Source: Rhodanobacteraceae bacterium
Lineage (GTDB): Bacteria; Pseudomonadota; Gammaproteobacteria; Xanthomonadales; Rhodanobacteraceae
Length of the DNA: 61,144 nucleotides
Reading direction: 5' to 3'
NCBI GenBank assembly: GCA_004299705.1
Contig: SCQS01000005.1
Coordinates: 1-61,144 of the forward strand
Position 1 is the first letter of the stretch. Every line of letters starts with the position of its first letter. A model generated the notes under the pieces. That model saw nothing but the letters and a program-made list of their open reading frames with translations. It did no database searches and was not told the DNA's origin. The translations under genes were made by a program, and so were the position numbers. This document shows, piece by piece, positions 34,386 to 61,144 of the stretch.

Positions 34386-35094
34386 GGGTGCTCCCCGTCA
34401 CGTCGGGTCCGCGGCATGCACCACGGAGGGGCGGTTGTGAATCCCTGATGGTTCCGCATCGCTCCCTCGAAACGGCGCGGGCTCGTGCGCCTGGCACAAG
34501 AGGCCGTACCATACCGGCCCTCTGGTCCGACGACAAGCGCCGGATGGCACGCGCCCGCGATTCCGTTCGAGCCATCAGCGCCAAAGCGCATCAGGGGGTG
34601 AGCGGCAACAACGCTGCGTCGCTTTCCGCCTTTCCACCCCCTTCCGCGGGAAGGCGGAACGTAGCGAACGCGCATGCAGCGCGACACACTTGTCCTCCCC
34701 CTTCCAAAGGAAGGGGGATCGAGGGGGATGGCTTTTTGCAACCGTGACGACATCCCCCCGATGCTTGCGCATCGACCCCCTTCCTGCGGAAGGGGGTGGG
34801 CTTGTCTTCCTCCTTCGCAAGAGAAGGGGGAATGAGGGGGATGGCTTTTTTCGTTTCGCCGTGCGGGCGCATCCCCCTGCGATTTCGTCGCGACCCCCTT
34901 CCTGCGGAAGGGGGTGGGCGCGCGCTACTGCACCGTCACTCCGTTGCATTGCCTTGGTAGGGCGGGTGACAACCCGCCGTGGTCGTGTCGGGTGGCGGGA
35001 ACTGCACCGTCACTCCGTTGCATTGCCTTGGCAGGGCGGGTGTCAACCCGCCGTGGTCGTGTCGGGTGGCGGGATTCGCTGCGCTGCTCCCGCC
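34386..35094. repeat. Repeat-rich intergenic region
   Basis: A 709-base region with no credible gene. From about 34610 to 34920 it carries at least four palindromic units of the CCCCCTTCC/GGAAGGGGG family, in both orientations, some with the GATGCTTGCGCATCG or GCGATTTCGTCGC hairpin attached. From 34927 to 35074 two 74-base direct repeats lie in tandem (34927-35000 and 35001-35074, three or four differences by eye), each containing GGCGGGTG..CAACCCGCC. Short open frames here are low-complexity translations of repeats. Confidence 0.8.
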
Positions 35095-39464: not shown

Positions 39465-39564
39465 TTTTCCTCCAGGAACCGAATAGGGGGTCAGAGTGCA
39501 CTTTTCATGGCGACTGCCGCACGACATGCAGTCTTTGAAGAAAAGTGCACTCTGACCCCGGTTT
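39445..39564. repeat. Cluster of three GGGGTCAGAGTGCACTTTT elements
   Basis: Two copies run on the plus strand (39445-39468 and 39484-39505) and one inverted copy (39541-39564) closes the unit. The left copy covers the start of the GNAT gene, and the right copy touches the stop codon of HMG-CoA lyase at 39564-39566. The element is shared with 56228-56312, 58914-58996 and 59616-59707. Confidence 0.85.
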
Positions 39565-56227: not shown

Positions 56228-56312
56228 GAAACCGGGGTCAGAGTGCACTTTCGATGAAGGTCTGCGATAGCGTGACATCCGGCGCCAGAAAGTGCACTCT
56301 GACCCCGGTTTC
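56228..56312. repeat. Complete GGGGTCAGAGT inverted-repeat element upstream of liuA
   Basis: Two perfect 25-base inverted arms (56228-56252 and 56288-56312, core CCGGGGTCAGAGTGCAC) enclose a 35-base loop. It fills nearly all of the 99-base gap between the leucine dehydrogenase stop and the liuA start. Only three bases separate its edge from the liuA ATG. Confidence 0.9.
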
Positions 56313-58309: not shown

Positions 58310-61144
58310 ATGAGCCAGACTGCCATTGATCTTTCTTCCCGCGAACCCAAGCTGGACACCACGCCGCTGCGTTTCGTCACCGCCGCCAGCCTGTTCGACG
58401 GGCACGACGCCGCCATCAACATCATGCGCCGGATCATCCAGTCGCAGGGTGCGGAAGTGATCCACCTTGGCCACAACCGCTCGGTTGAAGACGTGGTGCG
58501 CGCCGCGCTGCAGGAAGACGCCGACGGCATCGCGCTGTCCAGCTACCAGGGCGGCCACGTCGAATACTTCAAGTACATGGTGGACATGCTGCGCGAACGC
58601 GGCGCCGGCCACATCCGCGTGTTCGGCGGCGGCGGCGGCACCATCACCCCCGAGGAAATCAGGGAACTGCAGGACTACGGCGTCGAACGCATCTACCACC
58701 CCAACGACGGCATGCACATGGGGTTGGTGCACATGATCGAGGACGTGGTTGGCCGCGCTAGCGCGGCCAGGGACCGGGGACTGGGGACCGGGGACCAGTC
58801 AAAGCACCTGCAGCCGAGCATCGACGACGAGGCCAGCGTCGGGCGGATGCTTTCCCGCATCGAAGACGGCGGCTTCTCAGAATCCGAATTGAAGCTGCTG
58901 CGCAAGCAATGGACAAAAAGGGGTCAGAGTCGTTTTTCGTCCGATGCCGGCGCCAAAGACGGTCCCGCTCGAAAACATGACTCTGACCCCTTTTTGCCTC
59001 CGGTCATCGGCATTACCGGCACCGGCGGCGCGGGCAAGTCGTCGGTGGTGGACGAACTGCTGCTGCGTTTCCTGCACGCCTTCCCGGAAATGCGCATCGC
59101 GGTGCTGGCGGTCGATCCGACCCGCCGCAAGGGCGGCGGCGCGCTGCTGGGCGATCGCATCCGCATGAATGCGCTGCGCTCGCATCGGGTGTTCATGCGC
59201 TCGATGGCGACCCGTCGCGCGCACGTCGCCACCAACGCGGTGTTGCACGATGCCATCGCATTCCTGAAGTCGCTGCCGTTCGACCTGGTGATCGTCGAGA
59301 CCGCCGGCATCGGCCAGGCCGACACCGAAATCGTCGATCTGGTCGATTTTCCCGTCTACGTGATGACCAGCGACTACGGCGCGGCCAGCCAGCTCGAGAA
59401 GATCGACATGCTGGATTTCGCGCAGCTCGTCGTGCTCAACAAATACGACCGCCGCGGCGCCGAAGACGCGCTGCGCGACGTGCGCAAACAGTGGAAGCGC
59501 AACCACACCGCGTTCCAGATGCCGGATGAAGACGTGCCGGTGTATCCCACCATCGCCAGCCAGTTCAACGACCCCGGCGTGACCTGGATGTTCGTGAACC
59601 TGTGCCGGCTCTTGCGGAAAAACCGGGGTCAGAGTCGCCTTTCGGACCCAAGGGCGGGTGCTGACACGGCCCTTGCATCGAAAGGCGACTCTGACCCCGG
59701 TTTTTCCCCGCACTGCGACTTCAAACCGCAGATCGACACCACGCTCAAGGAACCCCGCGCCACCGTCCTCATTCCCGGCAAGCGCGTGCGCTACCTCGCC
59801 GAAATCGCCGAGCAGGGCAGGGGCATCAATGCCGATGCGAAGCGCATGGCCGAGGCGGCGAGCAAAGCGCAGCATTATTACGAATCGTTGAAGGAACTGG
59901 GCGACTCCGATCTGCCGAAGCCGCTGGACCTGTATGGCGCGGAAGCCCTGGTCGCGGGCAAGGCCCGCTCCTACAAGAGCAGTGCCGACGATTCCAAAAC
60001 CCATGTAGGAGCGGGCCTGCCCGCGACCAACGATGCCGACCGCTCGCTGCTCGTCCTCCGCCAACGCTACAACGAAGCCGTCAAGGAACTCTCCGCCGAA
60101 GCCATCCACCTGCTGCGCGACTGGCCTTCCCGCCGCGAATCGGTACAAGCCGAATTCAACGAATACACCGTCCGCGGCAAGGCCATCAAGGTCCAGAACT
60201 ACCGCGAAACCCTGTCGCACCAGAAGGTGCCGAAGATCGCGCCGCCCGTGACCCGCGACTGGGGCGAGCAGCTCAAGTACCTGATGCTGGAAAACCTGCC
60301 CGGCGCGTACCCCTACACCGGCGGCGTGTATCCGTACCGGCGTTCCGGCGAAGACCCGACCCGCATGTTCGCGGGCGAGGGCACGCCCGAGCGCACCAAC
60401 CGCCGTTTCCACTACCTCAGCCTCGGCCAGCCGGCATCGCGGCTGTCCACCGCGTTCGATTCGGTCACGCTGTACGGCGAAGACCCGGCGCCGCGCCCGG
60501 ACATCTACGGCAAGATCGGCAACTCCGGCGTGTCCATCGCCACGCTGGTGGACATGAAGAAGCTCTATTCCGGCTTTGATCTCTGCGATCCCAAGACCTC
60601 CGTGTCGATGACCATCAACGGCCCCGCGCCGATGATCCTCGCGATGTTCATGAACACCGCGATCGACCAGCAGGTCGAGAAATACCTGAAGGAAGACGAC
60701 GCGCGCTGGGCCGCCGCGCAGAAGAAGATCGCGGAGCTGCTGAAGGGCAGGCCGCAGCCGCAGTATCACGGCGATCTGCCGCAAGGCAACGACGGCCTCG
60801 GCCTTGCACTGCTCGGCGTCACCGGCGACCAGCTTGTCGATGCCGAAACCTACGCCCGCATCAAGGAACACACGCTCTCCACCGTGCGCGGCACCGTCCA
60901 GGCCGACATCCTGAAGGAAGACCAGGCGCAGAACACCTGCATCTTCTCCACCGAATTCGCGCTGCGGATGATGGGCGACATCCAGCAGTATTTCGTCGAC
61001 CACAAGGTGCGCAACTTCTATTCGGTGTCGATCTCGGGCTACCACATCGCCGAGGCCGGCGCGAACCCGATCTCGCAGCTCGCCTTCACGCTGTCGAACG
61101 GCTTCACCATCGTCGAGTACTACCTCGCGCGCGGCATGCAGATC
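58310..61144 (+). CDS. icmF: Fused isobutyryl-CoA mutase (IcmF), 3' end outside window
   Basis: B12-dependent mutase with built-in chaperone, interconverting isobutyryl-CoA and butyryl-CoA (and isovaleryl/pivalyl-CoA in some members). The frame stays open for 945 codons to the window edge. The order is the B12-binding domain (LFDGHDAAINIMRR, residues ~20-140), the MeaB-like GTPase with P-loop GTGGAGKSS (~237-245) and NKYDRRG, then the mutase TIM barrel (EYTVRGKAIKVQNYRETLSH from ~615, later TINGPAPMILAMFMNTAIDQ). Four repeat sequences interrupt the linkers in frame, at about residues 154-163, 202-229, 436-466 and 547-574. All catalytic motifs seen are intact. Confidence 0.93.
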   Translation, partial: MSQTAIDLSSREPKLDTTPLRFVTAASLFDGHDAAINIMRRIIQSQGAEVIHLGHNRSVEDVVRAALQEDADGIALSSYQGGHVEYFKYMVDMLRERGAGHIRVFGGGGGTITPEEIRELQDYGVERIYHPNDGMHMGLVHMIEDVVGRASAARDRGLGTGDQSKHLQPSIDDEASVGRMLSRIEDGGFSESELKLLRKQWTKRGQSRFSSDAGAKDGPARKHDSDPFLPPVIGITGTGGAGKSSVVDELLLRFLHAFPEMRIAVLAVDPTRRKGGGALLGDRIRMNALRSHRVFMRSMATRRAHVATNAVLHDAIAFLKSLPFDLVIVETAGIGQADTEIVDLVDFPVYVMTSDYGAASQLEKIDMLDFAQLVVLNKYDRRGAEDALRDVRKQWKRNHTAFQMPDEDVPVYPTIASQFNDPGVTWMFVNLCRLLRKNRGQSRLSDPRAGADTALASKGDSDPGFSPHCDFKPQIDTTLKEPRATVLIPGKRVRYLAEIAEQGRGINADAKRMAEAASKAQHYYESLKELGDSDLPKPLDLYGAEALVAGKARSYKSSADDSKTHVGAGLPATNDADRSLLVLRQRYNEAVKELSAEAIHLLRDWPSRRESVQAEFNEYTVRGKAIKVQNYRETLSHQKVPKIAPPVTRDWGEQLKYLMLENLPGAYPYTGGVYPYRRSGEDPTRMFAGEGTPERTNRRFHYLSLGQPASRLSTAFDSVTLYGEDPAPRPDIYGKIGNSGVSIATLVDMKKLYSGFDLCDPKTSVSMTINGPAPMILAMFMNTAIDQQVEKYLKEDDARWAAAQKKIAELLKGRPQPQYHGDLPQGNDGLGLALLGVTGDQLVDAETYARIKEHTLSTVRGTVQADILKEDQAQNTCIFSTEFALRMMGDIQQYFVDHKVRNFYSVSISGYHIAEAGANPISQLAFTLSNGFTIVEYYLARGMQI
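58771..58796. repeat. GGGGACC short tandem repeat inside icmF
   Basis: The sequence GGACCGGGGACTGGGGACCG then GGGACC is translated as RDRGLGTGDQ in the linker after the B12-binding domain of IcmF. A related GGGGACTGGG stretch is at about 23085 beyond the his operon. Confidence 0.7.
58914..58996. repeat. GGGGTCAGAGT element inserted in frame in icmF (1)
   Basis: Inverted arms CAAAAAGGGGTCAGAGTCG (left) and a matching right arm ending CTGACCCCTTTTTG. The unit is translated as KRGQSRFS...HDSDPFL in IcmF, just before the GTPase P-loop. There are no stop codons in the frame. Confidence 0.88.
59616..59707. repeat. GGGGTCAGAGT element inserted in frame in icmF (2)
   Basis: Perfect 29-base inverted arms (59616-59644 and 59679-59707) with a 34-base middle that itself can pair (AAGGGC/GCCCTT). 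It is translated as KNRGQSRLS...GDSDPGFS between the GTPase domain and the mutase domain, with no stop. Confidence 0.9.
59949..60029. repeat. GTAGGAGCGGGC-type REP pair inserted in frame in icmF
   Basis: Inverted arms TGGTCGCGGGCAAGGCCCGC..CTACA and TGTAGGAGCGGGCCTGCCCG..ACCA differ by one base. The 81-base unit is translated as LVAGKARSYK...HVGAGLPAT in the linker helix region of IcmF. The REP sequence type is well known as an extragenic repeat in Pseudomonas and relatives, so its place inside a coding frame is unusual. Confidence 0.88.

Follow-up and report, generated by a model that had tools for sequence, protein, structure and literature searches.

Repeats of several families in the inter-domain linkers of icmF, a fused isobutyryl-CoA mutase gene of a Rhodanobacteraceae bacterium and its relatives

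Palindromic elements that are read in frame, as inserts in the products of working genes, occur in Wolbachia. The Rickettsia palindromic elements behave in the same way, and intragenic in-frame repetitive extragenic palindromes (REPs) of the GTAG/CGTC type were described in 2013 from several bacteria, Xanthomonas and Stenotrophomonas included (PMC3733652; this and the other articles are cited from excerpts). Those REPs are short palindromes, often dimers, that lie in frame in conserved genes and amount to about 20–30 residues; uvrA was hit twice, and recB of two Xanthomonas species was hit near the same site (PMC3733652). The same article describes TIRYT transposons, in which a Y1 transposase gene lies between long terminal inverted repeats (TIRs) with ends of consensus GGGGWSAS, and TIR dimers elsewhere in the genome. 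Here we describe a stretch of 61,144 nucleotides (the window) at the end of contig C23 of a Rhodanobacteraceae bacterium (genome of 3.62 Mb in 78 contigs), in which icmF, the gene for a fused isobutyryl-CoA mutase, carries four repeats of several families in its linkers.

The locus differs from each of these systems. The published intragenic REPs lie scattered over many genes, for the most part at differing sites (PMC3733652), whereas here unrelated families occupy four fixed linkers of one gene, order-wide. The TIR-type copies described below have mostly unrelated interiors and co-varying arms, and lie in frame in icmF, mpl, nadE and ctaA, whereas the intragenic survey in that article, as excerpted, covers REPs. 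The likeness to the Rickettsia and Wolbachia elements is drawn from behaviour; here, for two of the families, the genome holds a transposase gene that matches. Perfect inverted repeats are also kept within protein-coding genes of Nematomorpha mitochondria, although both arms there encode conserved residues and the excerpted text claims no mobile-element origin (PMC6649704). Quasipalindrome template switching, a process that perfects imperfect inverted repeats, is known in Escherichia coli from reporters, whereas here it would have acted over long evolution (PMC7202029).

A first-pass annotation of the window had taken icmF for an independent case of such in-frame elements, parallel to those of Rickettsia and Wolbachia. 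The in-frame repeats are real, but REPs of this kind were already in print (PMC3733652), so icmF is not the first case outside those two genera. Searches of the open-access literature, and the excerpts of PMC12306157, yielded no description of icmF as a site hit recurrently or of linker arrays that match each other, and for GGGGTCAGAGT only papers on unrelated subjects, judged by title, were found. Intragenic REPs are thus known; what is apparently new, relative to the open-access literature, is a multi-family sink in a single gene.

Four repeats in icmF and their probable sources in the genome

The four repeats were reported earlier in a frame open throughout, and the sequence agrees from 58310 to the window end at 61144 (Table 1). 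The final 120 nt of the window are identical to the start of contig C22 and in frame with it; the C22 part of the frame has 344 amino acids, 40 of them overlapping with the window, and the joined C23 and C22 product has about 1,249. No frameshift is seen. A pseudogene is ruled out for this genome because the frame continues across the overlap. The window protein, which is without its C-terminus, scores 1107 bits with NCBIfam IsobCoAmut_IcmF (NF045497; curated cut-off 1500) and matches PDB 4xc6 with an E-value of 8.9e-251. Its domains follow the order B12, MeaB-type GTPase, mutase (Pfam B12-binding 21–124, MeaB 232–395, MM_CoA_mutase 658–791). In IcmF a linker joins the G-protein and mutase parts (PMC10481361). 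The alignment to Cupriavidus IcmF (4xc6) is interrupted at residues 152–230, 436–593 and 799–845, and the repeats lie within the first two gaps.

Table 1. icmF, its four linker repeats and further GGGGTCAGAGT pairs of the window.
Feature	Position	Strand	Description	Basis
icmF	58310..61144	+	fused isobutyryl-CoA mutase; 945 codons, truncated by contig end; continues on contig C22	
Linker 1	58770..58797	+	four GGGGACC-type heptads, read RDRGLGTGD; half of congeners' inverted heptad pair	sequence
Linker 2	58914..58996	+	GGGGTCAGAGT palindrome 1, core 58920–58990 (71 nt), read KRGQSRFSS...KHDSDPF; directly 5' of P-loop	sequence, fold
Linker 3	59616..59707	+	GGGGTCAGAGT palindrome 2, core 59625–59698 (74 nt), read NRGQSRLS...KGDSDPG; GTPase/mutase border	sequence, fold
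Linker 4	59950..60028	+	facing pair of GTAGGAGCGGGC REPs, GTAG ends inside, read ...KARSYK...HVGAGLPATN	sequence, fold
Further GGGGTCAGAGT pair	56234..56306		5' end region of a gene	pair search
Further GGGGTCAGAGT pair	39487..39559			pair search

Together the repeats amount to 282 nt, or 94 codons, close to the 95 repeat-made residues first estimated, and the four linkers exceed those of the shortest homologues in the set by 78 residues (127 vs 49). The earlier proposal that repeats of several families add peptide to IcmF linkers is supported, and the repeat peptides would be retained in the product. Predicted RNA folds are far more stable than those of shuffled sequences for palindrome 1 (−52.1 kcal/mol, z −9.3), palindrome 2 (−76.2 kcal/mol, z −11.0) and the linker-4 REP pair (−61.1 kcal/mol, z −8.5); the heptad stretch has no exceptional fold (z −0.9; 33 of 200 shuffles equally good). 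The heptad run alone is not palindromic, and its inverted partner lies in linker 2 of the five congeners examined. What had been read as an element of its own is present, but as one side of a coupled inverted array, the linker-2 side of which is missing here.

Each repeat type has further copies in the genome. There are 38 exact GGGGTCAGAGT...ACTCTGACCCC pairs (none with a reversed-pattern control), at 39487, 56234, 58920 and 59625 of the window and at 34 places on other contigs; the gene with the pair at 56234–56306 near its 5' end is presumably acyl-CoA dehydrogenase-like. The GTAGGAGCNNGCCTGCNNGCGA REP has 91 matches (46 + 45; control 0), and heptad runs occur at 8 places (control 0). Three Y1_Tnp genes are present. 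The transposase gene linked to the GGGGTCAGAGT pairs, a Y1 (IS200-like) gene about 6 kb downstream of icmF (L072, 56.8 bits), is bracketed by GGGGTCAGAGTCGACTTT ends that match GGGGTCAGAGT-type pairs; GGGGTCAG fits the TIRYT end consensus GGGGWSAS (PMC3733652) and, as in TIRYT, the same ends surround a Y1 tyrosine transposase gene. The second (L073), with GTAGGAGC repeats on either side, is a RAYT gene among repeats, and the repeat GTAGGAGCGGGCCTGCCCGCGA is a stem-loop with GTAG at one end and many copies, as expected of GTAG REPs. The third adjoins GTAGGGCGGGAGAAGC repeats. A related palindrome with another end type (GTGTCGGGTTC/GAACCTGACAC) was seen at L095 986–1063.

Frames were computed for all 38 pairs, and nine open reading frames besides icmF were examined closer. 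At least five of the 38 pairs are in frame, in four genes: icmF and three known genes (mpl, nadE and ctaA) in which a Pfam match spans the insert. The Mur ligase middle domain of mpl runs over the insert, and the PDB match likewise has a loop there; the NAD synthase domain of nadE runs over 34 residues that correspond to 6 in its PDB match; and so does the COX15-CtaA domain of ctaA over its insert (Pfam 218 against a cut-off of 29.9, NCBIfam 27 against 550 bits). Eight of the nine frames were searched against Pfam, and five of these had no match. Four of the five in-frame pairs are read RGQS...SDP, that of nadE GSEC...HSDP. In-frame insertion in conserved genes, the mark of Rickettsia palindromic elements, is thus found here too, as a likeness only; membership is not claimed.

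Linker palindromes and heptad arrays among relatives

A set of 150 icmF loci was assembled from 70 of the 114 genomes that had a match and from named records, of whose 588 relatives the best 80 were taken. Once 13 duplicates and L043, a gene broken by a frameshift, had been removed, 136 distinct genes were left, at least five of them shortened by a contig end (L002, L033, L035, L045 and L046). The frameshift of L043 (about 2030–2370), the icmF locus of G001, falls at a G run in linker 3 and is either real or an assembly error, and in linker 1 of L118 (Lysobacter profundi) two Ns stand at the tip of the hairpin, a hint of assembly trouble.

Palindromes were called with one score for all linkers (threshold 12, stricter cut-off 15). 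At score 12 or more they are present in linkers 1, 2, 3 and 4 of 6, 2, 23 and 35 of the 136 genes, a total of 66 in 544 linkers vs 1 in 544 same-length control windows elsewhere in the same genes. At least one was found in 52 of the 136 genes and two or more in 13; the other 84 have none at this score, several of them with linkers of three residues. As a small control, three other genes were compared in 30 genomes: the window's biotin carboxylase-like gene, DnaX and UvrA (presumed identities). With score 15 or more, icmF has 15 palindromes in 30 genes and the control genes 0/30, 0/28 and 0/30; with score 12 or more the counts are 15/30 for icmF and 3/30, 2/28 and 3/30 for the controls (28 where two cut loci were left out). 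Both kinds of control, windows and genes, rule out chance or composition. Linker palindromes in icmF are order-wide and recurrent, and the phenomenon is not limited to the single gene and species of the first-pass annotation.

The families recognized by eye in the linkers are GGGGTCAGAGT, GGGGTCAGGTTC, GTAGGAGC, GTAGGGCGGG, GTAGAGCGGAGC, GTCATCCCGGCG (read VIPAKAGIQ), CCCTCTCCC/GGGAGAGGG, CTACGCTCAGG and CCCTTCCCCCGC; copy number in other genomes was counted for GGGGTCAGAGT alone. Among the named carriers are Arenimonas donghaensis, A. metalli, A. malthae, Luteimonas gilva, Pseudoxanthomonas sacheonensis, Lysobacter profundi, Dyella ginsengisoli, Frateuria defendens and Dokdonella fugitiva. 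Other relatives have no inserts, as had been anticipated for true insertions, or have different repeats at the same linkers. Among the homologue linkers listed, none has the window's linker peptides without the DNA repeat, as judged by reading and not by a formal search.

The heptads of linkers 1 and 2 form matched arrays. Linker 1 has forward heptads in 25 of the 136 genes and reverse heptads in none, linker 2 has reverse heptads in 20 and forward heptads in none, and 19 genes have both; the native code between the two linkers is 81 nt long and has no indels. In 25 genes (window excluded) the complementarity of a gene's own linkers 1 and 2 averages 20.9, vs 12.2 for swapped partners (0 of 20,000 permutations) and 13.5 for the nearest relative in the tree (own linkers score higher in 19 genes, lower in 3 and the same in 3; Wilcoxon p 0.001). 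For five congeners, the true pairing of linker 1 with linker 2 is the best of 120. Linker 1 of the window is complementary to linker 2 of the congeners L032 and L034 (24 each) and not to its own (7), which has palindrome 1 where congeners have the heptad partner. Comparison with congeners shows that linkers can swap one repeat for another.

Phase, arms and history of the TIR-type copies

Nineteen TIR-type copies were recognized in icmF genes. Linker 3 holds 13 of them, linker 1 five and linker 2 one; the number of true events is lower, since some copies, such as the near-identical L039 and L041, are not independent. A favoured frame, suspected from the two copies of the window, is borne out: 18 of the 19 are read in one phase, mostly RGQ-HFS...DP, the exception being L045. 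In the GGGGTCAGAGT type the TGA of the right arm blocks the third phase, so that two phases are open.

The arms are largely complementary. Across 17 icmF copies, pairing holds for 318 of 340 arm cells, with compensated changes at 13 of 20 positions. Among the 38 pairs of the own genome it holds for 741 of 760 cells, with 11 of 20 positions preset by the search pattern; at the nine free positions 323 of 342 are paired, and all six variable ones show compensated changes. Some compensated changes alter the protein on one side (CAC/GTG vs CAT/ATG). Complementarity extends beyond the element into the flanks, as though one flank were an inverted copy, at L100 2924, at L097 2997 and in linker 3 of L038, L039 and L139; in the last three it enters the EKK codons of icmF.

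A shared filling of the 38 own-genome pairs was not found (mean interior score 6.46 vs 6.16 shuffled): the interiors measure about 33 nt and, apart from two pairs that exceed all ten shuffles, are unrelated to one another. With their mostly perfect, co-varying arms, the copies look as if each had a new filling. The best match among all pairs of interiors joins the linker-3 copy of the window to a copy on contig C9 (L078), a match expected of a fairly recent insertion.

For the history of linker 3, a FastTree tree was built from 816 columns with linkers excluded, and GGGGTCAGAGT carriers were assigned by a script rule (10 of 136, L168 being missed). At least nine changes are needed on this core tree, seven of them forced by well-supported branches. 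Five carriers (L006, L014, L038, L039 and L041) have in common a length of 74 and, by eye, an inner G(A/G)GTCG, a motif also present in L018 (71 nt) and absent from the linker-3 copy of the window; their icmF copies differ in length or arm from own-genome copies, where any exist. Exact GGGGTCAGAGT pairs number one each, in icmF, in G060, G074 and G084, three in G098 and six in G054; seven congeners have none. In G109 and G025 the icmF pair is the only paired match to a 19-base end with up to three mismatches. Old copies and new insertions seem both to occur.

Probable origin and upkeep of the palindromes

We consider it probable that the repeats arrived by transposition, survived at tolerant linkers and had their arms kept up afterwards by template switching. 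Miniature mobile palindromes would have landed in icmF and been tolerated there. By their matching ends and copy number the GGGGTCAGAGT pairs may be non-autonomous relatives of the Y1 transposase gene about 6 kb downstream, and the GTAGGAGC pair would have moved with the second Y1 transposase. Insertions in genes would usually be lost, and those in icmF would persist because its four loose inter-domain linkers take extra peptide, provided that length and phase keep the frame, that the TGA of the right arm is avoided and, presumably under selection, that the hydrophilic RGQS...SDP reading results. Thereafter the arms would stay complementary while the interior drifts, quasipalindrome template switching at replication being the most likely cause. 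In this way part of the sequence of a functioning enzyme appears to come from mobile DNA.

Several observations weigh against this reading. The AlphaFold model of IcmF is poor (mean pLDDT, a per-residue confidence score, 59.4; pTM, a global one, 0.45), so that the low-confidence coil predicted for the four inserts speaks only weakly for loose linkers. The arms of L012 and L037 have decayed, and in the own-genome copies L080 15629 and L091 991 the core of one arm is altered; arm upkeep is therefore not universal. The spread of linker-3 GGGGTCAGAGT labels over the tree is matched by 100 of 500 shuffles that are as low, which fits recurrence but also poor resolution. In G060, G074, G084, G109 and G025 the icmF copy is the sole GGGGTCAGAGT-type pair found in the genome, and the ends of the neighbouring transposase gene in G060 and G098 are of GGGGTCAGGTTC type, unlike the icmF element; random hops with neutral loss predict neither. 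Passive tolerance alone does not explain the matched arrays of linkers 1 and 2.

The alternatives are not mutually exclusive. A single ancient insertion in linker 3, lost in most lineages, would explain why the copies of G084, G054, G098, G060 and G074 are alike in length (74), phase and inner motif, and why those of G054 and G098 are unlike the other copies of their genomes in length or arm. We find it rather unlikely: the window copy is without the motif and its interior matches another own-genome copy, linkers 1 and 2 made separate gains, and parsimony asks for nine changes, at least seven on supported branches, losses included. Unlikely in our judgement, too, is the broader idea that icmF palindromes of whatever family are self-perpetuating, not passive scars; their arms would be kept by template switching or hairpin selection even where they bracket native code (linkers 1 and 2) or are the last of their type, and the hairpin at a domain junction would be an inherited, exchangeable feature. 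If instead the hairpins were functional, mRNA stems at domain borders might slow the ribosome for stepwise folding of the B12, GTPase and mutase domains, or linker length might tune domain motion, and any hairpin family would serve. Unrelated families at the same four borders, stems of −52 to −76 kcal/mol and arms mostly paired with compensated changes, even where the icmF copy is the only one of its type found in the genome, agree with such a function; with 84 of 136 genes lacking a linker palindrome, several linkers of only three residues and two decayed copies, we hold it to be distinctly unlikely.

Local transposition would make linker tolerance secondary, the neighbouring TIRYT-type transposase moving its ends nearby. 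Among 19 genomes with at least 11 kb of sequence, chosen by us with carriers first and viewed on the downstream side (G026 and G055 were too short), 10 have such a gene 3.6–10 kb downstream of icmF (L101 7139–8476; also L300–L304, L312–L314 and L316), with 6 of 8 linker-3 element carriers vs 4 of 11 others, and 8 of the 16 Y1_Tnp hits above 40 bits in 13 genomes fall in that zone. An inherited transposase neighbourhood is not supported, because downstream genes other than icmF and the transposase are hardly shared, and this poor conservation favours local movement. Even so we regard it as very improbable, given that other linkers hold REPs and families unrelated to the TIRYT-type transposase, that own-genome copies lie on many contigs, that two of the eight carriers have no such neighbour, and that the ends differ in G060 and G098. 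An artefact of assembly or annotation, or a pseudogene, is scarcely credible and largely refuted: the contig end inside icmF, the Ns in the L118 hairpin and the L043 frameshift at the linker-3 G run would fit it, but assemblies of many species have in-frame linkers and conserved domains, and the frame of the window continues in C22.

With many repeat families at the four joints of a single enzyme, and dozens of species that either carry inserts or lack them, icmF offers a natural replicated experiment on mobile DNA becoming protein. Three views of palindromes in genes can be tested on it, namely that they are tolerated junk, that template switching maintains them, or that they serve as hairpins to pace translation at domain borders, and arrays matched across 81 nt of native code provide an unusual case of two parts of a gene evolving as mutual complements. 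Elsewhere in the window, a 74-bp unit with GGCGGGTGACAACCCGCC occurs at 34927–35074 in two tandem copies with 97% matches.

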